DNA from: Bacillota bacterium
GTDB taxonomy: Bacteria; Bacillota; SHA-98; Ch115; JABLXJ01
DNA: 64,000 nucleotides
NCBI GenBank assembly: GCA_013178125.1
Contig: JABLXJ010000009.1
Location: forward strand, 62,001 to 126,000
Direction: 5' to 3'
Below are positions 35,501-43,211 of this stretch, one piece after another (the stretch's first letter is position 1; every line of letters starts with the position of its first letter). The notes beneath the pieces were generated by a model. The model saw only the letters and a program-made list of their open reading frames with translations. It had not been told where the DNA came from and searched no databases. A program made the translations under genes and the position numbers.

Positions 35501-36571
35501 ATGAAGCCTAAAGAGCGAGTCATGCGCATCTTAAACCACCAGGAAGCTGATCGTGTACCTATTGATTTCTGGGCTGCGGACGAAGTGTGGGACGAACTCA
35601 TGAGCCACCTGCGGGTCTCCAATAGAGAGGATCTCTTACGGGAATTGCACGTGGATTTCCGCTTCCCTTCTGCTTGTTTCAGCGATCTCATGCCGGCACA
35701 GACTTATCCGGACGGTAGTTTTGAAGACTCGTGGGGAGTGAGGAGAAAAGGCCCTTTTGGCGGTATCCCAATAGAGCACCCACTGGCGGGGGCAATATCT
35801 GTGGAAGATATTGAGAAATACAGCTGGCCAAACCCGGATAATATTGATTATGATGGATTTGTCCGGGAATGCGAACAGTATAGCGACTATGCTATTTACG
35901 GCGGTGCTTGGAGCCCCTTCTTCTATGTGGCATGTGAACTAATGGGTATGGATAATCTATTTGTGAATATGGTAGAGGCGCCAGAGGTGGTACATGCTCT
36001 TCTGGACAAGACTTGTGGTTTTTACCTGGAGGTCTCCCGGCGGATGTTTGAAAAAGCCAGGAATAAAATGGATATATTTTTTATGGGGGAAGATTTCGGC
36101 ACACAAAACGGACTAATCATGAGCAGGGATATGTGGAGGATATTCATTGCTCCCCGGCTAAAAAGCCTCTTCGAGCAGGCAAAATTATACGGTTATAAAG
36201 TGATGCTACATTCCTGTGGAAGTGTCCGCGACCTGATCCCGGATCTTATAGAAATGGGGCTGGATGGTTTGGATCCCATCCAGGTGCGGGCACGGGGAAT
36301 GAATATCGAGGAGCTAAAACAAGAGTATGGATCGGTGCTAACCTTTAGAGGCTCCATAGATACCCAACAAACCTTACCTTACGGGACGCCCGAGGATGTG
36401 AAGCGAGAAGTTATCGACCGGATATGCAAAATTGCCCCGGGCGGGGGGTTTATTTTAAACTCGAGCCAGAACCTCTTGCCTGAGATCCCCCTTGAAAACA
36501 TTATCACCATGTACCGGACGGCATATGAATACGGGCATTACGATAGTTTAGGGCAGCGAAAAACGGCCTGA
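35501..36571 (+). CDS. URO-D/MtaA-superfamily protein 1
   Basis: A 356-aa (beta/alpha)8 protein of the uroporphyrinogen decarboxylase superfamily (MKPKERVMRILNHQEADRVPIDFW start). The Arg-rich substrate site of HemE is absent, so it is not a heme enzyme. H237-S-C239 (VMLHSCGSV) matches the zinc His-x-Cys of methylcobamide methyltransferases, but the C-terminal cysteine is replaced (LNSSQNLLPEIPLEN). Related proteins move methyl groups between corrinoids and CoM or folate; many linked to sugar importers are uncharacterised. No corrinoid protein lies in the window. AT-rich like the importer genes; AAGGAGG ribosome site. Confidence 0.8.
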   Translation: MKPKERVMRILNHQEADRVPIDFWAADEVWDELMSHLRVSNREDLLRELHVDFRFPSACFSDLMPAQTYPDGSFEDSWGVRRKGPFGGIPIEHPLAGAISVEDIEKYSWPNPDNIDYDGFVRECEQYSDYAIYGGAWSPFFYVACELMGMDNLFVNMVEAPEVVHALLDKTCGFYLEVSRRMFEKARNKMDIFFMGEDFGTQNGLIMSRDMWRIFIAPRLKSLFEQAKLYGYKVMLHSCGSVRDLIPDLIEMGLDGLDPIQVRARGMNIEELKQEYGSVLTFRGSIDTQQTLPYGTPEDVKREVIDRICKIAPGGGFILNSSQNLLPEIPLENIITMYRTAYEYGHYDSLGQRKTA

Positions 36572-36635
36572 AGGCAGGTAACCAAGGGAATGACGCTGGG
36601 GGCGCTCAAATGACGCCATGACGGTGGAGGTATCA

Positions 36636-37904
36636 ATGCCGGTGGTGGTATCAAAAGTAATATCGAAAAAGGATAAGCAAATCCTGAGAGAGCTTGTCGA
36701 GAAGGTGGCGGAGATAGCGGCCCTGCCCGTTCAGCAGGAGAAGGCCGGGATGTGGAAGCGGCTCAACGGGCTTGAAAGGGTCAAGCCCATGATCTGGATC
36801 AACGAGATCCCGTGGCATGAGATGGATGTAAATGGCGAACTGGAGCTCAAGACCGAGGATGAGTTTTGCCGCATGCTGGAGACGGGGCTCCGACAGACGA
36901 TCTACCAGTGGGAGCATATGAGGGGAGATATGGTCGTGGAGCCGAAGATCTACTGCCCCCTCGTCATCTATGATACCGGTTTCGGGATCTCCGAGGATGT
37001 GGATATTGTAAGGACCGACGAGAAGAGTTCCATCATCTCGCGGCATTTTCACCCTCAAATACAAGAAGAAAAGGATATCGAGAAGATAAAGATGCCCGAG
37101 GTCGTCTATGATGCGGAGGCGACCGAACACAATTACCAGCAGATGGTTGATATCTTCGATGGCATCCTCACGGTGGAGAAACGGGGCGTGCCCGGTTTCT
37201 GGTTTGCGCCGTGGGATGAGTTGATCCGGTGGTGGGGGGTCCAGGAGGCCATGATGGACCTCGTATTGCGCCCGGAACTGGTCCACAAGGCTATGGACCG
37301 GCTGGTAGAGGCCTACCTTCGCCGCTTGGACCAGTATGAGGAACTGAACCTCCTGTCACTGAACAACAACAATACCCGCATAGGCTCCGGCGGCTACGGT
37401 TATACAGACGAGTTACCCCAGCCCGGCCATGACCCGGCCCACATCAAAGCGGCCGACCTGTGGGGGTGCGCTGCAGCCCAGATATTCTCCGAGGTTTCCC
37501 CGGAGATGCATGAGGAGTTTGCCCTCAAGTATGAGATCCGGTGGTTGAAGAGGTTTGGACTGAACTATTACGGCTGTTGTGAGCCGCTCCATAAGAAGAT
37601 AGGTATACTCAAGCAGATACCGAATTTAAGAAAGATATCCATGAGCCCCTGGGTGAATGTAGAAGAAGGAGCTGCCAACATAGGGAACAAGTATGTGTTT
37701 TCATATAAACCCAGCCCTGCAATCTTTGCGGCGGATGCGTGGGATCTCGAGGCGGCCCGCGCACAGCTGGTGAGCGCCCTGGAAAAGACAAGAGGCTGCG
37801 TGGTGGAGGTTATTATGAAGGATATCAGCACAGTCCGCTACCAGCCGCAGCGCCTGTGGGAATGGACCGAGATGGCCGCTCAGGTGACGGAGGATTTTGC
37901 TTAG
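36636..37904 (+). CDS. URO-D-superfamily protein 2, divergent and longer
   Basis: A 422-aa protein starting at the ATG at 36636 behind GGAGG (an earlier in-frame ATG lacks a ribosome site). An N-terminal extension of about 45 residues is helical. The barrel contains WFAPWDELIRWWGVQEAMMDLVLRPELV and NYYGCCEPLHKKI (C314-C315) where MtaA-type enzymes have their His-x-Cys, so the zinc site is altered. The C-terminus has SYKPSPAIFA and RGCVVEVIMKDISTVRYQP. I assign only superfamily. It is GC-rich, unlike URO-D 1, and lies 64 bases after it. Confidence 0.7.
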   Translation: MPVVVSKVISKKDKQILRELVEKVAEIAALPVQQEKAGMWKRLNGLERVKPMIWINEIPWHEMDVNGELELKTEDEFCRMLETGLRQTIYQWEHMRGDMVVEPKIYCPLVIYDTGFGISEDVDIVRTDEKSSIISRHFHPQIQEEKDIEKIKMPEVVYDAEATEHNYQQMVDIFDGILTVEKRGVPGFWFAPWDELIRWWGVQEAMMDLVLRPELVHKAMDRLVEAYLRRLDQYEELNLLSLNNNNTRIGSGGYGYTDELPQPGHDPAHIKAADLWGCAAAQIFSEVSPEMHEEFALKYEIRWLKRFGLNYYGCCEPLHKKIGILKQIPNLRKISMSPWVNVEEGAANIGNKYVFSYKPSPAIFAADAWDLEAARAQLVSALEKTRGCVVEVIMKDISTVRYQPQRLWEWTEMAAQVTEDFA

Positions 37905-37945
37905 AGGCGCGCCTGCCCAGCAAACATGAGAAAGGGGGAACAGCT

Positions 37946-38992
37946 ATGAGCTATGAGAGAGGGCTCAAAGCCCTGAACCTCGAGATGACCGAGAAAATAC
38001 CTCACACCGAGTACCTGGATCATCCCGGATATGTCCGGCTCAAGACGGGGTTTGACCTGAACCCGGATGACCCGGACGAATTCCGGCTCGCCAACGCCGC
38101 GATTGCAAAGGTCATGGATTACGACCTTTTCTGGAATATATTTGAACGTCCAATCACCCGGGGTCGCATTACGAAAATGGGAAGGGCCTACTTTCACGAG
38201 AACCAGGGCCCGGACTACGAGGTTTACTGCCCCTTCAAGACCGTTGAGGACGTTCTGAATTTCGACCCCGTGGCCGAATACGGGATCCCGGACGTGGATA
38301 TCACTGCTAAGATATTCCAGCAACACTATGTGGAAAACCAGGCGCTCTACGATTCCATGGTCTACACGGGCGGGCGGTACCACACGCTATTCAGCGCCTG
38401 CATACGGACCTTTGGATGGGAGATGTTTCTCGCCGGCGCCGGGGCGGAGTATGAGCGCTTTGACAGGGTGTTGGAGGGGTTTTACGAAATCTCCATGGCC
38501 GAGGTGAAGGCGTGGGCGAAGACGGGCATCAAGGCATATATCTGCCATGATGACATCGTATGGAGCTCCGGCCCTGTCTTCCACCCCGACTGGTACCGGA
38601 AGTACATCTTCCCAAGGTACAAAAAGTTATGGGCCCCGCTGAAGGAAGCCGGGATCAAGGTGCTTTATTGCTCCGACGGCAACTTCGACGCATTCGTGGA
38701 CGACATCGCCGGGGCGGGGGCCGATGGCTTCATCTTTGAACCCATCACCTCCCTGGAGCGTATCGCGGAGAAATACCGCAAGTCGAAGGTAATGGTGGGC
38801 AATATTGACTGCCGGATACTCACCAGCGGCACCAAGGAGGAGATCAGGGCTGAGGTGAAGCGCTGCGCTGATATAGGCAGGGACTGCCCCGGGTATTTCT
38901 TCGCTGTGGGCAATCACATCCCCGCTAATGTACCCATCGAGAATATAGAGATCTACCTCGATGCGCTCGACGAATTCGGAAGACGGTCTTAA
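37946..38992 (+). CDS. URO-D-superfamily protein 3
   Basis: A 348-aa URO-D-like protein starting at the ATG at 37946 behind AAGGGGG; the longer upstream frame is non-homologous. The barrel pattern is clear (AYICHDDIVWSSGPVFHPDWYRKYIFPRYKKLW, GADGFIFEPITSLERIAEKY). The zinc His-x-Cys position reads Tyr241-Cys-Ser, and the C-terminal Cys region reads AVGNHIPANVPIEN, so both metal ligands are lost. Thus it probably does not bind zinc in the MtaA manner. It lies 41 bases after URO-D 2. Confidence 0.78.
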   Translation: MSYERGLKALNLEMTEKIPHTEYLDHPGYVRLKTGFDLNPDDPDEFRLANAAIAKVMDYDLFWNIFERPITRGRITKMGRAYFHENQGPDYEVYCPFKTVEDVLNFDPVAEYGIPDVDITAKIFQQHYVENQALYDSMVYTGGRYHTLFSACIRTFGWEMFLAGAGAEYERFDRVLEGFYEISMAEVKAWAKTGIKAYICHDDIVWSSGPVFHPDWYRKYIFPRYKKLWAPLKEAGIKVLYCSDGNFDAFVDDIAGAGADGFIFEPITSLERIAEKYRKSKVMVGNIDCRILTSGTKEEIRAEVKRCADIGRDCPGYFFAVGNHIPANVPIENIEIYLDALDEFGRRS

Positions 38993-39110
38993 ATTGGGTA
39001 AGTTTTAGCATAATTTAGCATAAGTCCTGGGGTTACTCGGGTAAGGGCTGAGTTCAGGTTCCCCGCTGACAGACTGCCGCAAAGCGATGGACCCACATTT
39101 CGGTATCAGG

Positions 39111-39119
39111 TGGTATAAT
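39111..39119 (+). promoter_or_regulatory. Extended -10 promoter upstream of URO-D 4
   Basis: TGGTATAAT is a perfect -10 hexamer with the upstream TG of extended -10 promoters. It lies about 30 bases before the start of a truncated 50-codon frame that is coupled to URO-D 4. No good -35 hexamer is present, as expected for this promoter class. Confidence 0.55.
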
Positions 39120-39147
39120 AGGCATATAAAGTAAAGGGGGAGAATTC

Positions 39148-39300
39148 ATGTCCGCCCTGATTGAGACTAAAGCAGTGGTCCTTTTTCAAGGGGATAGCAT
39201 TACAGATACTGGCCGCAACCGGGAAAATGATGATCTGGGCCAGGGGTATGCGATGTGTTCAAGTTGGTCGAAAACAGACAGAAAGAGGGTGTTTCGATGA
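39148..39300 (+). pseudogene. Truncated SGNH/GDSL hydrolase start, coupled to URO-D 4
   Basis: A 50-codon frame beginning MSALIETKAVVLFQGDSI at 39148 behind AAGGGGG. It contains block I of SGNH hydrolases (LFQGDSITDTGRNRENDD, then LGQGYAM), after which similarity stops abruptly and an unrelated Lys/Arg tail ends in TGA. A full SGNH hydrolase is about 200 residues, so this is a decayed or fused remnant. Its stop overlaps the URO-D 4 start as ATGA, so it may now serve as a translated leader. The promoter upstream appears intact. Below the length of most ORF lists. Confidence 0.7.
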
Positions 39301-40304
39301 CCTCCTACGAAAGGCTCATTTCCGCGATCGAGTTCCGGACGGCTGATCGCATTCCAGTGTTCCCGCTGGTAATGCGCTTTGCGGCCAGGTTTGCGGGCAT
39401 GACATACAGGGATTACATGATGAGCGGGGATAAGCTTGCCGAGGCCCAGATCACCTGCCGGGAGAGATTCGGGTATGACGCCGTGACCGTATGTTCGGAT
39501 GCCTACCGGGAATCAGATGCCCTCGGAGCCGTCATTGACTACCCGGAGGAGGATGCGGCCCGGCCGGTGAGGTGTGCGCTGCACTCGAAGGAGGTGCTCG
39601 ACCGCCTCGAGGTGCCTGATCCTTTGAAGGGGCACCGCATGCGGGAGCGGGTGGAGGCGGTACGCCAGTTGAAGAAGCATTATGGCGGGAAGGTTCCATC
39701 TTTCGGGTGGGTTGAGGCACCCTTCTCGGGCGCTGCATATATGCGGGGCGTGGAGCAGTTCTTGATCGACCTCTACGAAGACCCCGGTTTCGCCACAAAA
39801 GCCATCGAGTTTGCATATGAAACCGAGCTCCGCTTTGCCCTGGCCCAGGTCGATGCGGGGGCCGACATGATCGGGGCTGGAGACGCTGCGGCTTCCCTGT
39901 TATCCCCGCCACTCTACGAGAGATATGCCCTCCCCTATGCGGCGAGAATGTTCCGGGAGCTGAAATCAAGGGGCGTCCACATCAAGTACCATATCTGCGG
40001 GGATACCAACCACCTCCTGCGAGCGATGGCCCGCCTGGGTGCAGATATCATCAACCTGGACTTCATGGTGGACCTGAAGGCGGCAAGGGAGGCGTTTGGC
40101 CCTTCGACGGCCATAAAGGGCAACGTAAACCCGGTCATGGTCGAGAGCCTCTCCCCGTCGGAGTTGATATCGAGATTGCAGGAATGCGCCGGGCAAGCCG
40201 GCCGGCTGGGGTATATCATCAGCCCTGGCTGTGAGGTTACCCCCGATACCCCTTATGAAAATATGGATGCTATGATTGAGACTGCGTTTAAGATCCAATA
40301 TTAG
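39297..40304 (+). CDS. URO-D/MtaA-superfamily protein 4 with complete zinc site
   Basis: A 335-aa protein starting at the ATG at 39297 inside the stop of the upstream remnant. It keeps the complete metal set of methylcobamide:CoM-type methyltransferases: H232 and C234 (YHICGDTNHLL) plus C312 (ISPGCEVTPDTPYEN). The N-terminus reads ADRIPVFPLVMRFAARFAG. It is the best candidate for a real methyl-transfer enzyme among the four paralogues. The methyl acceptor and the corrinoid partner are unknown; a folate-linked role is more likely than CoM in a non-methanogen. Confidence 0.82.
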   Translation: MTSYERLISAIEFRTADRIPVFPLVMRFAARFAGMTYRDYMMSGDKLAEAQITCRERFGYDAVTVCSDAYRESDALGAVIDYPEEDAARPVRCALHSKEVLDRLEVPDPLKGHRMRERVEAVRQLKKHYGGKVPSFGWVEAPFSGAAYMRGVEQFLIDLYEDPGFATKAIEFAYETELRFALAQVDAGADMIGAGDAAASLLSPPLYERYALPYAARMFRELKSRGVHIKYHICGDTNHLLRAMARLGADIINLDFMVDLKAAREAFGPSTAIKGNVNPVMVESLSPSELISRLQECAGQAGRLGYIISPGCEVTPDTPYENMDAMIETAFKIQY

Positions 40305-40412
40305 CCAGCATTGAGTCCAGCATCGAGTTGATGCGTATGAGACGTTTGATTTTCCAGACCGGGCATAACTTGCTCTAACTCTAAGCACATAAAGCAGACA
40401 TAGTCGAAGACA

Positions 40413-40607
40413 TTGTTCCCCTCCATCCTCACCGACCTCTTCAACCGTATAGGGGTCGATGTCAGCTTCGGGGGCTATGGCTTGAAGCAGGAACAGGTCG
40501 AGGATTTCTGTGAGCTAGTTTATAACAGCTTCCAGCTGGACTTAAAAGGCCATCCAAAACCAGTATCTAAGAAGGACCTTGTGGAGATCATGGAGAAATG
40601 TATGTGA
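40413..40607 (+). pseudogene. C-terminal fragment resembling iron-containing alcohol dehydrogenase
   Basis: A 64-codon frame with a TTG as first possible start and no ribosome site. The sequence LFNRIGVDVSFGGYGLKQ, then QLDLKGHPKPVSKKDLVEIMEKC has the helix layout and the N/H-P-(K/R)-P-V-x-K-x-D-L-x-E-I ending of Fe-ADH C-termini. Nothing upstream resembles the rest of the enzyme, so it is called a remnant. It could instead be a small unrelated protein. Confidence 0.45.
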
Positions 40608-40937
40608 AGTGGTAGCGTAGATGTAACGTAGATATTAGCAACTCAGACATCAGTAGTTCAGAAACAGAATAAGCGCTACCAGGTTATGGTTCTCCAGGTT
40701 TGTTATGATCAATAGTAATAGTCCGGACGGTTATAGCGTGATTGGCCTATACCATATGAGAAAGAGAAAACCATGCGGGAGACTGGATAGACATCGGGAT
40801 CTCCAGCTGCAAGCTGGCCGCCCTTCCTGTTGGTCGGGTTAAATTATGACCCGGTCCCCAGCCAGCCGAGCCCTGTCAGACTTCTACCGGATCCCCAACC
40901 AAACCCGATCAAAATTCAGTCAGTAGTATATCCGAAT
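40608..40937. other. Gene-free stretch containing the left repeat array
   Basis: This 330-base stretch lies between the Fe-ADH-like fragment and the stop codon of the nuclease-like gene. No gene is seen. The first 220 bases are loosely repetitive AT-rich sequence (GTAGATGTAACGTAGATATTAGC). The last 90 are the left repeat array at 40836-40925. Confidence 0.6.
40836..40925 (+). repeat. Left array of a ~33-bp repeat (3 units)
   Basis: Three degenerate copies of the unit ACCCGGTCAAAATTTAGCCC (core) begin near 40836, 40873 and 40906; the last two cores are exactly 33 bases apart. The same unit forms a six-copy array on the other side of the nuclease-like gene, in the same orientation. The first copy is near-palindromic (GGGTTAAATTATGACCC). 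Confidence 0.65.
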
Positions 40938-41642
40938 CTATCTCATACATCCTCTTCCAACCTCCTCCAACAGCTTCGCGATTTCGCTCTCAGGATCGAC
41001 CGGGTCGACAGGTAATTCCGGAGGAATTTTGGATATCATCTTCTTCAACGTCAAATCATCCCTAGTAACTACGATGACTTTGATATTCTTCTCCATACTT
41101 AAACCGAGTTTAATTAAATCCCTCTTCCTCCTCTCCTTGAAAGCCTGTTTATCGGGATACATCTCGGTCGGCCCGTAATGCTGGTCTCCGTTGAACTCGA
41201 AAGCCACACCCGCGAGGTAGTACCTATCATATTCGAGGGGCTGACCCGTATCCGGATTTCGCAGGAACTGAGGACGAGCATTATCTATGTAGTTGTCGTC
41301 GGGAATCAGGAAATCTAAGAACCGCTTCATGACCGTTTCCGCTCTATGGCCTGACATATCCAGGTTGTGCTTGATCCGCATAATATAGGCCTTCTCAACT
41401 TCTTTGGGCATGGTCGGGATGATTGCACTCCGGCCGGATTGCCTGATGGTTTTTACCCAGCCTGCTTGTTCCAATTCTCGATAATACCGCCGTATGGCGC
41501 ATCTGGATTTTTTGGTAAGCCTAACGAGTTCGCCTAATGAGCGAGGACGGGCTATAGAGATAACTACATATACATATTTTGCCTGGAGGGATAGGTCCTC
41601 CTGAAAAAAGAGTTCAGGTGGGATATAGGGGCTTCTTATCAA
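40938..41642 (-). CDS. Winged-helix protein with EDxHD/PD-(D/E)XK-like nuclease domain
   Basis: A 234-aa protein. The N-terminus (about 15-75) is a winged-helix/MarR-like DNA-binding region (SLGELVRLTKKSRCAIRRYYRELEQAG). The C-terminal half has LEYDRYY, then AFEFNGDQHYGPTE, then RRKRDLIKLGL and IKVIVVTRDDL. This order (D, E-[FY]-x-G-[ED]-Q-H-[YF], K/R-x-D, and a hydrophobic strand) is that of Vsr/homing-type EDxHD nucleases of the PD-(D/E)XK superfamily. The function is unknown. The gene stands alone, AT-richer than the flanks, with 33-bp repeat arrays both upstream and downstream. A role in mobility, homing or self-regulation is inference. Confidence 0.6.
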   Translation of the reverse strand: MIRSPYIPPELFFQEDLSLQAKYVYVVISIARPRSLGELVRLTKKSRCAIRRYYRELEQAGWVKTIRQSGRSAIIPTMPKEVEKAYIMRIKHNLDMSGHRAETVMKRFLDFLIPDDNYIDNARPQFLRNPDTGQPLEYDRYYLAGVAFEFNGDQHYGPTEMYPDKQAFKERRKRDLIKLGLSMEKNIKVIVVTRDDLTLKKMISKIPPELPVDPVDPESEIAKLLEEVGRGCMR

Positions 41643-42087
41643 TTTCCTATACCTCCGTTATTTGGTATCTTATCATGATTTGGGAGCGAGTCTATCTATT
41701 TCAATCCATATTTTACCATATACATCATAAAATTTGCAACTAAATACTGGGTATAAATCAGTTTTTTGTTAAATTCAGTTATTAGTCGCATGATCGCTCA
41801 TAAGAACTAACACAGTCAAAATTTAGACGGGTCTAACAACGAACCCGGCCTAATTTTAGCCATGTCTGGCGATGAAGCCGGTCAAAATCGAGACCGGTAC
41901 CCGGTCAAAATTAAGCCCGGGCTTCCCCCGAAGCTGGTCAGAATTTAACCGGGTTTCCCAGCCAACCCGGTCAAGATTTAGCCGGATCCGGTACCAAATC
42001 CGGCACCAGGAGCATCCTCATATTGTAATTTAATTGGGTAATTTAAGATAATTCTGCGAAATTCGAGATTGGAAGCATAGAAATCAG
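41643..42087. other. Gene-free stretch containing the right repeat array
   Basis: A 445-base gap between divergently arranged neighbours: it is upstream of the nuclease-like gene and downstream of the DUF1638 gene. The first 170 bases are AT-rich and should hold the nuclease promoter. The six-unit array follows at 41812-42000. No gene is seen. Confidence 0.65.
41812..42000 (+). repeat. Right array of a 33-bp tandem repeat (6 units)
   Basis: Cores GTCAAAATT (with variants) begin at 41815, 41848, 41881, 41904, 41937 and 41970. The spacings are 33, 33, 23, 33 and 33 bases. One unit has lost 10 bases, so all six cores stay in helical phase. The unit consensus is close to ACCCGGTCAAAATTTAGCC followed by CGGGTTTCCCAGCGA, with near-dyad symmetry in the CCGGTCAAAATTTAGCCGG core. 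It lies upstream of the nuclease-like gene. It is not a CRISPR because there are no unique spacers. Confidence 0.8.
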
Positions 42088-42888
42088 TCAATCCGAATTA
42101 TCACCCCTCGTTTCCTCGATTCCTTCTGCATCCTCTGCGCAGATAATAGAATCATCAAAACTGGCGCAAACTGTCTTGCCCGGGTGGACGACCAGCACCT
42201 TATCCTCATTAAATTCCCCGTTAAGGAGTTTCTCGAGCAGCACCCGGTCCCCCGGGAGTTCGTCATAGTGCCACCCGAGAAACTCCGCGCATTCCCTGGT
42301 ATATCTCCTGTAAAAATCCGACCGCGGGAAGCCCCAGTCTATATAGGTCGCGTAGTTGTATTCCTTGAACCAGCCCTGCTCCATTTGCATAAGATAATCG
42401 GCGTTATCCTTGCCGTACATCTCCACGTACCTGTCGTATATCCTCCTGTACCTCTCCTCCCCCGGCTGGAGGGTCCTCTCGATCCAGCCCGCCGAGTACC
42501 AGTAAACCCCCCGGTGGGAGTCGAAATATTCCTTGTATCTCTCCTTTGACCCCAGCAGCAATGTAATACAATCGTGCGCCCTCGGGATCACAATGGGAAT
42601 CTTCTCGCTGGTAAGGCCAACTATGCCGTTACTGCACAGGCCATACCCGAGGACAATGAAGTCGTATCCAAACAGATTGAAATCCTTCATGCTGGCCTTT
42701 TCCAGGTAGTTAAGCTTATAACCTCTATTGGCTGCGTCAATCTCATCCTGCAGCGCCCTTCTCAATTTGTCGGGCTCATTGTGAAGCCCCTGGGGCAGGA
42801 ATCTGACATCCACGAAATGCCTCGATTGGCTGCTCAGCATGGAAATCTCACGGTTGAGCACGTCACAGGCTATGACCTTTATGTGCAT
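42088..42888 (-). CDS. DUF1638-family protein
   Basis: A 266-aa protein starting at the ATG at 42888 behind GGGGGT (the longer frame upstream has no similarity). It carries the DUF1638 signatures VLGYGLCSNGIVGL and IPRAHDCITLLLGSKERYKEYF, with conserved Cys and His that could bind metal. Function is unknown; as far as I recall such genes often sit near corrinoid methyltransferase clusters, which would fit the nearby URO-D proteins. It is transcribed towards them from the opposite strand. Confidence 0.8.
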   Translation of the reverse strand: MHIKVIACDVLNREISMLSSQSRHFVDVRFLPQGLHNEPDKLRRALQDEIDAANRGYKLNYLEKASMKDFNLFGYDFIVLGYGLCSNGIVGLTSEKIPIVIPRAHDCITLLLGSKERYKEYFDSHRGVYWYSAGWIERTLQPGEERYRRIYDRYVEMYGKDNADYLMQMEQGWFKEYNYATYIDWGFPRSDFYRRYTRECAEFLGWHYDELPGDRVLLEKLLNGEFNEDKVLVVHPGKTVCASFDDSIICAEDAEGIEETRGDNSD

Positions 42889-43211
42889 CACAATTACCCC
42901 CTGCTCCCTTCGTTGGGGCCGCGCGCCTCTCACGCGCCCGCTTTGTTCCATGACACTATCGCTCGCTGGCCGGGGGCGGGATAGAGTGAACCGCCCCATA
43001 CATATCACGTAGCATACATATCATGTGGCAAAATACTCCGCGTGGGAGGTAAGCAAGTAGGCCTGCTCGCTCACCTCCTCCAGAATACCTTGCGAAGCAC
43101 GCACACCCAGCCAATACCTGGTAGTGTATGGCAGCAGTACAGTGGCATATGGTGGTATATCGTGGTACATGGTAGTATTATGCTATGTGTGCAGCAAGCA
43201 ATTTGGCACCA
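42889..43211. other. Intergenic region between DUF1638 and Zn-ADH genes
   Basis: A 323-base gap with no gene. Bases 43,125-43,195 are a run of near-repeats of GTGGCATATGGTGGTATATCGTGGTACATGGTAG, another example of the short-word intergenic sequence of this genome. Both flanking genes are on the minus strand. Confidence 0.55.

Follow-up and report, generated by a model that had tools for sequence, protein, structure and literature searches.

Few repeats of bacteria are as well known as REP elements. In REP/RAYT systems an enzyme gene lies beside its own palindromes, many copies of which stand gene-less in intergenic positions, the palindromes are lineage-specific, and several enzyme lineages can occur in one genome (PMC3116915). 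By analogy, REPIN/RAYT is the closest functional parallel to the locus described here (PMC3116915; PMC8266576), which shares with it a single enzyme gene next to palindromes that match dispersed intergenic palindromes, a lineage-specific palindrome for each enzyme, and several enzyme lineages per genome. The enzyme at this locus is a winged-helix/VSR-like nuclease, whereas RAYT (TnpA-REP) is a Y1 HUH (IS200/IS605-like) transposase, and its repeats form long in-phase arrays, mostly of 2-29 phased units across the family, whereas REPIN units are inverted hairpin doublets; for these two reasons it is not a member of the REP/RAYT class.

The locus lies in a 64-kb stretch of DNA, referred to as the window, and is best explained, with a probability of about 0.6, as the copy that carries the gene in an intragenomic element of two parts, resembling REPIN/RAYT but with a homing-type nuclease in place of the transposase. 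No equivalent nuclease/array system was found in the open literature searched, and the family looks like a seemingly undescribed counterpart of the REP elements of bacteria that does without a transposase. The features of the locus, in window coordinates, are as follows.

39009..42083, no strand: 3.07-kb segment missing from G001, a genome of the same genus, in which window positions 36197-39008 and 42084-42889 are adjacent
40835..40927, plus strand: three-unit array directly past the stop codon, oriented as the six-unit array, with units at ~40837, ~40874 and ~40907
40938..41642, minus strand: open reading frame of the winged-helix/nuclease gene, 234-aa product
41705..41725, minus strand: likely extended -10 promoter TATATGGTAAAATATGG (minus-strand reading), between the six-unit array and the gene, with the element at 41714-41720
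41805..42003, plus strand: six-unit array 5' of the gene, made of imperfect 20-bp palindromes CCGGTCAAAATTTAGCCGG at spacings of 33, 33, 23, 33 and 33

Given the minus-strand orientation of the gene, the six units lie 5' of it and the three units 3' of its stop. The first-pass annotation, made from the sequence, had described six units before the start and three after the stop in one orientation, with core spacings of 33, 33, 23, 33 and 33 in the right array; the arrangement is present as described and the spacings match exactly (cores at 41814, 41847, 41880, 41903, 41936 and 41969). Spacings in the three-unit array are ~37 and ~33, and its middle unit is degenerate. The consensus GGTCAAAATTNAGCCGG, allowing up to three mismatches, has eight matches in the window, all within the 1.15-kb stretch 40835-41985, whereas 100 dinucleotide shuffles gave 0.60 matches on average and never more than 2. 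The distal end of the six-unit array, GGATCCGGTACCAAATCC, is common to four gene-less copies elsewhere in the genome (L089, L090, L091 and L093).

The gene starts with TTG at 41642, just after a GGAGG Shine-Dalgarno sequence, and its G+C content of 0.474, compared with 0.53-0.54 in the flanks and 0.56 in the whole window, agrees with the earlier observation that it is AT-richer than its surroundings. The leader (41643-41800) has a G+C content of 0.31 and contains the element TATGGTA, which occurs in 13 of 60 homolog leaders and in 5 of 1281 background windows and is likely an extended -10 promoter. The six-unit array begins ~90 bp beyond it and, with the likely promoter sitting between array and gene, would be upstream of the transcript.

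Insertion sequences of the IS21 type and Tn7 carry multiple transposase-binding sites at their ends, and the multiple phased sites that flank the window gene on either side look like such ends. The locus could accordingly be an old IS21-like element, with surviving multiple terminal repeats and the nuclease gene as a passenger. This origin is highly improbable. Neither IstA (DDE)/IstB nor any other transposase is present near the window gene, whose neighbours encode URO-D, DUF1638 and dehydrogenase proteins, and for lack of a transposase the locus falls outside IS21. No recurring partner gene was found across 60 loci, at which the genes met repeatedly seem to belong to widespread transporter and regulator families. 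Unlike IS21/Tn7 ends, the arrays of homologs are mostly one-sided and also occur without any gene, and those of different nuclease lineages are unrelated in sequence and follow a common spacing rule, so that array sequence changes with the nuclease lineage. A phased array upstream of a winged-helix gene also recalls iteron-controlled replication initiators, an anatomical likeness only, from which the locus differs in its fused nuclease, its dispersed chromosomal arrays and the absence of plasmid genes seen nearby.

The protein joins an N-terminal, MarR/TrmB-like winged helix (residues ~9-76) to a C-terminal VSR/EDxHD-type nuclease (~95-212). AlphaFold2, with 33 homologs as input, gave a confident two-domain model of the full-length protein (pLDDT 93.6), and the nuclease domain modelled alone reached 88.9. 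In a fold search of that domain alone against the PDB, VSR endonuclease 1cw0 was among the top matches (TM 0.54, probability 0.96; no E-value below 0.08), and PvuRts1I and, more weakly, TnsA were other nearby folds, every E-value being weak. The VSR mismatch-repair endonuclease is the best function-related fold of the domain, from which the protein differs by its extra winged helix and by a sequence that has diverged beyond the reach of Pfam and PDB sequence searches: Pfam and NCBIfam gave no match over cut-off, a PDB sequence search with the protein returned winged-helix regulators as its only matches, and one with the nuclease domain alone returned chance matches only.

Among PHROG profiles, phrog_9084 matched 32 of the 33 family members, and those named for homing endonucleases, HNH endonucleases and intron-encoded nucleases matched 32, 32 and 21 members, respectively; a few members matched phage replication-initiation profiles, and phage and plasmid collections yielded nothing beyond partial matches to the nuclease domain. 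Nine residues (W62, P124, D139, E149, G152, H155, D175, K178 and L197) are invariant in the alignment of 33 homologs, including all of the EDxHD-type active-site positions D139, E149, H155, D175 and K178, which suggests that the nuclease active site is kept under selection. The first-pass assignment of a winged helix joined to an EDxHD-type nuclease is backed by the profile matches, by the VSR fold and by these invariant catalytic positions.

The nuclease domain is to be placed near the EDxHD homing endonucleases, with which it shares the conserved active site and the match to PHROG homing-endonuclease families; homing proper is putative. EDxHD homing endonucleases (I-Bth0305I) can dimerise on long targets (PMC3943268). 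Unlike these and free-standing phage homing endonucleases, the nuclease described here is chromosomal, carries an N-terminal winged helix, was observed in neither an intron nor an intein, and has dispersed palindrome arrays associated with it. Fusions of a winged helix to a nuclease that restrict 6mA DNA are also known (PMC11037411), and on that precedent the protein could be a defence nuclease, modification-dependent (type IV-like) or other, that uses its winged helix as the reader, with the arrays as intergenic repeats that have nothing to do with it. There is little to recommend this explanation, as PADLOC defence models gave weak matches, to the winged helix only, and it leaves both the array linkage and the cognate copy number unexplained.

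Of 200 relatives, 19 have a homolog of the nuclease, as do 31 of 399 genomes taken from across the phylum, with up to six, often divergent, per genome; homologs beyond the window's own genome (G000) include some in Bacillota MAGs. The arrays are linked to the gene. When similar 14-mers were counted blindly per 1.2-kb window and at least ten repeat positions were taken as an array, an array was present within 1.2 kb upstream of 21 of the 33 homologs (64%), compared with 10-23% of other flanking windows (10-17% of distant windows and 23% of those directly downstream), and the median number of repeat positions across the 33 loci was 17 in the upstream-adjacent window and 0 elsewhere. About one-third of homologs have no array by this criterion of at least ten positions, and some of the repeats flanking homologs are ordinary 15-18-bp tandems. 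In G352, a single contig of 3,566,135 bp and probably a complete genome, arrays are found upstream of five of six nuclease copies. The arrays upstream of two copies in this genome (L143:3192-4199 and L144:3588-4080, gene-strand coordinates) are long inverted-repeat arrays, exemplified by GAGGCGGAATGTGCA..TGCACATTCCGCCTC with an 86-bp period.

A genome-wide search for the window repeat, proposed in the first-pass annotation, found it at seven further places in the same genome, all gene-less and intergenic, with 1-9 units each, and at three weak places, while repeat model R1 gave 34 units at about ten places. Unrelated gene pairs, selB/etfA, purH/purD and spoIID/mazG among them (names from sequence reading), border these gene-less arrays. 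The larger orphan arrays keep one order, in which a 23-bp unit and a unit ending in GAACCCGGGCTTTCCCCAAAG are followed by 33-bp units, and the orphan array at L093 consists of the first and last units only. Dispersed copies with a common distal end (the window and four orphans) are a feature shared with MITEs and other non-autonomous elements, as is their absence from G001, and gene-less arrays with like internal organisation and distal end would represent dispersed non-autonomous copies.

The number of palindromes in a genome tracks the nuclease type that it encodes. Every one of 17 places sampled in G014 has an array, with 6-29 palindromes in a 32-32-41/52 pattern. The palindrome common to G014 and G006 has 415 and 466 copies in these genomes, respectively, compared with 13-29 in four genomes of the same genus with another or no nuclease type, a level also given by a reversed-pattern control. 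Counted on both strands, the palindrome of G012, G010 and G015 has 176, 62 and 315 matches in these genomes and only 3, 7, 25 and 9 in G007, G013, G016 and G014; the exception is G011, with 75 matches and no nuclease found in a fragmented assembly. As G014 and G006 are sister species, this contrast represents few independent events. The repeats are thus genome-wide, yet they follow the nuclease type, contrary to the first-pass proviso that they might prove unlinked to the gene.

An unlikely alternative is a free-standing homing endonuclease that moves its own gene only, with the array as a local autoregulatory operator and the dispersed arrays as relics of lost genes. It would agree with the relationship of the nuclease domain to phage homing endonucleases, with the position of the array just upstream of the likely promoter, with the common occurrence of decayed paralogs (L002/L050 interrupted, L074 broken) and with one G014 gene-less array that shares its spacer with intact (G008) and broken (G004) nuclease genes. 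It is opposed by the abundance of arrays in G014, where one nuclease gene was found alongside more than 400 palindromes, and by the gene-less copies, which keep the array ends and in which no remnant of the nuclease gene was seen. Both the first-pass proposal of a nuclease with its own array and that of a self-mobilising unit find support at the level of the family.

The palindromes differ between lineages. The unit consensus is CCGGCTAAATTTTGACCGG at the window, TCACCCGGTGA at the paralog in the same genome, TGGTCCCCNGGGGACCA in G006 and G014, TGGTCGAAAATCGACCA in G012, with a similar form in G010, and in G003 TGTCATCNNATGACA together with two TGCTA..TAGCA-type palindromes; the majority of these consensuses are palindromic (p ~0.005-0.01). 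The usual distance between neighbouring sites is 31-35 bp, followed by 41, 52, 63, 73 or 84, and the pooled distinct spacings best fit a period of 10.5 bp (R=0.71, p<1e-4), as expected if proteins occupy a single side of the helix. The helical phase that had been proposed for the window array is therefore clear across the family, but unclear in that array alone, as 33 and 23 bp are inexact multiples of the period. Motif similarity is correlated with similarity of the winged helix (rho 0.25, p=0.03) and not with that of the nuclease domain (rho 0.04), a weak fit to a pairing of winged helix and palindrome. The winged helix would most likely bind these palindromic sites as a dimer.

Palindromes can also fold as RNA, and the window arrays fold more stably than shuffled sequences (z -2.9 and -2.75; -1.3 for an orphan array), as would be expected if the transcribed array were a structured, CRISPR-like or guide-like RNA with the protein as its effector. 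This is nevertheless very improbable: compensatory double changes in G014 units are not in excess (21 observed, 26.5 expected), which counts against selected hairpins, the likely promoter sits between the array and the gene, helical spacing is a property of DNA, and the arrays have no match in Rfam.

Arrays are polymorphic among relatives. G001 is without the repeat at five of five sites compared (the window, L089, L090, L092 and L095), and the segment that it lacks at the window contains a URO-D-family gene and a decayed dehydrogenase-like remnant as well as the nuclease/array unit. In the empty-site comparison proposed in the first-pass annotation, arrays were missing from sister genomes, but the copy with the gene showed no clean empty site in G001, where the 3.07-kb gap takes in the neighbouring URO-D gene. 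One spacer, which separates a PHP-family gene from an oxidoreductase gene (both named by reading the sequence), measures 1.67 kb in G014, including a 790-bp array, and 24 bp in G008 and 6 bp in G005. G006 and G014 are 84-96% identical at array loci, and three of five G014 arrays are common to both and two are missing in G006, whose contigs often terminate within arrays. The spacer upstream of an aldo/keto reductase gene, with an intact nuclease gene in G008:C27, a broken one in G004:C37 and a gene-less array in G014:C12, suggests a recurrent insertion site.

No target-site duplication was seen, the G001 sites being diverged or occupied by other insertions, and neither a constant insertion boundary nor a copying intermediate was seen, G014 copies ending at varying points. 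These results make a classical cut-and-paste element unlikely and mosaic, recombination-driven spread more likely. Arrays could also be partly passengers in permissive spacers, since the spacers compared also collect unrelated MITEs.

For the two-part element, we infer steps of binding, cleavage and copying. The protein would bind in-phase sites on one DNA face, both at its own array, where binding would probably also control the nuclease promoter, and at dispersed arrays. The bound nuclease may then nick or cut the DNA, and repair or replication restart at the break could copy array segments into intergenic sites, while unequal exchange would lengthen and shorten arrays and every nuclease lineage would drift together with its own palindrome. 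Tentatively, the family may represent a transposase-free class of mobile or domesticated bacterial DNA, in which long arrays of binding sites, in helical phase, are spread through intergenic DNA by the homing-type winged-helix nuclease that recognises them; what chiefly multiplies would then be the array and not the gene, and nuclease and palindrome would co-diversify.

If true, a second, unrelated enzyme class would be associated with REP-like arrays, indicating that such systems arose more than once, and the family would provide a new model for the multiplication of binding-site arrays without a transposase. It would also supply winged helices that occur naturally in pairs with distinct palindromes, and these might reveal rules of recognition. 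In practical terms, the arrays break assemblies, and in genomes of Bacillota they may be misread as CRISPR or as what is left of an IS.

Several other repeats occur near these loci. A palindrome of G001, TAATCTCCGGCC..GGCCGGAGATTA, with 17 copies, was considered as the cognate repeat of the G001 nuclease and rejected, being part of a separate MITE, CTCGCATCTCTCC..TAATCTCCGGCC..GGCCGGAGATTA..TTTTTGCGCACTAACTTAG, present at 17 places (for example, L055:1-160 and L055:1990-2150). This MITE brackets the G001 nuclease gene, and its core palindrome is not present in G000, G002 or G003; the contig begins only 377 bp before the gene, which leaves the true array of the G001 nuclease out of view. A near-perfect palindrome of ~45 bp, GGTGACGGTGCGGCGCGCCTC..GAGGCGCGCCGCACCGTCACC, fills a G001 spacer (L163 ~1940-1990, G001:C119) that holds an array in G000. 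The nuclease paralog in the window's own genome is interrupted by a palindromic insertion of ~120 bp, GGGTTRCCGGTG..CACCGGTAACCC (L002:1240-1380, G000:C2:265.7k), probably a MITE, and similar sequences lie beside arrays in other genera, at L118 and at the G014 loci L096, L098, L099, L100, L104 and L112.

In the window itself, positions 35501-40304 form a cluster of URO-D-family (methyltransferase-like) genes, and past it, at ~40420-40608, the sequence resembles the C-terminal remnant of a dehydrogenase gene; at this locus G001 lacks both this remnant and the last URO-D gene. Ordinary riboswitches were also observed, for c-di-AMP near the G014 nuclease locus (L054:4671-4820) and for cobalamin in L091:7425-7615.
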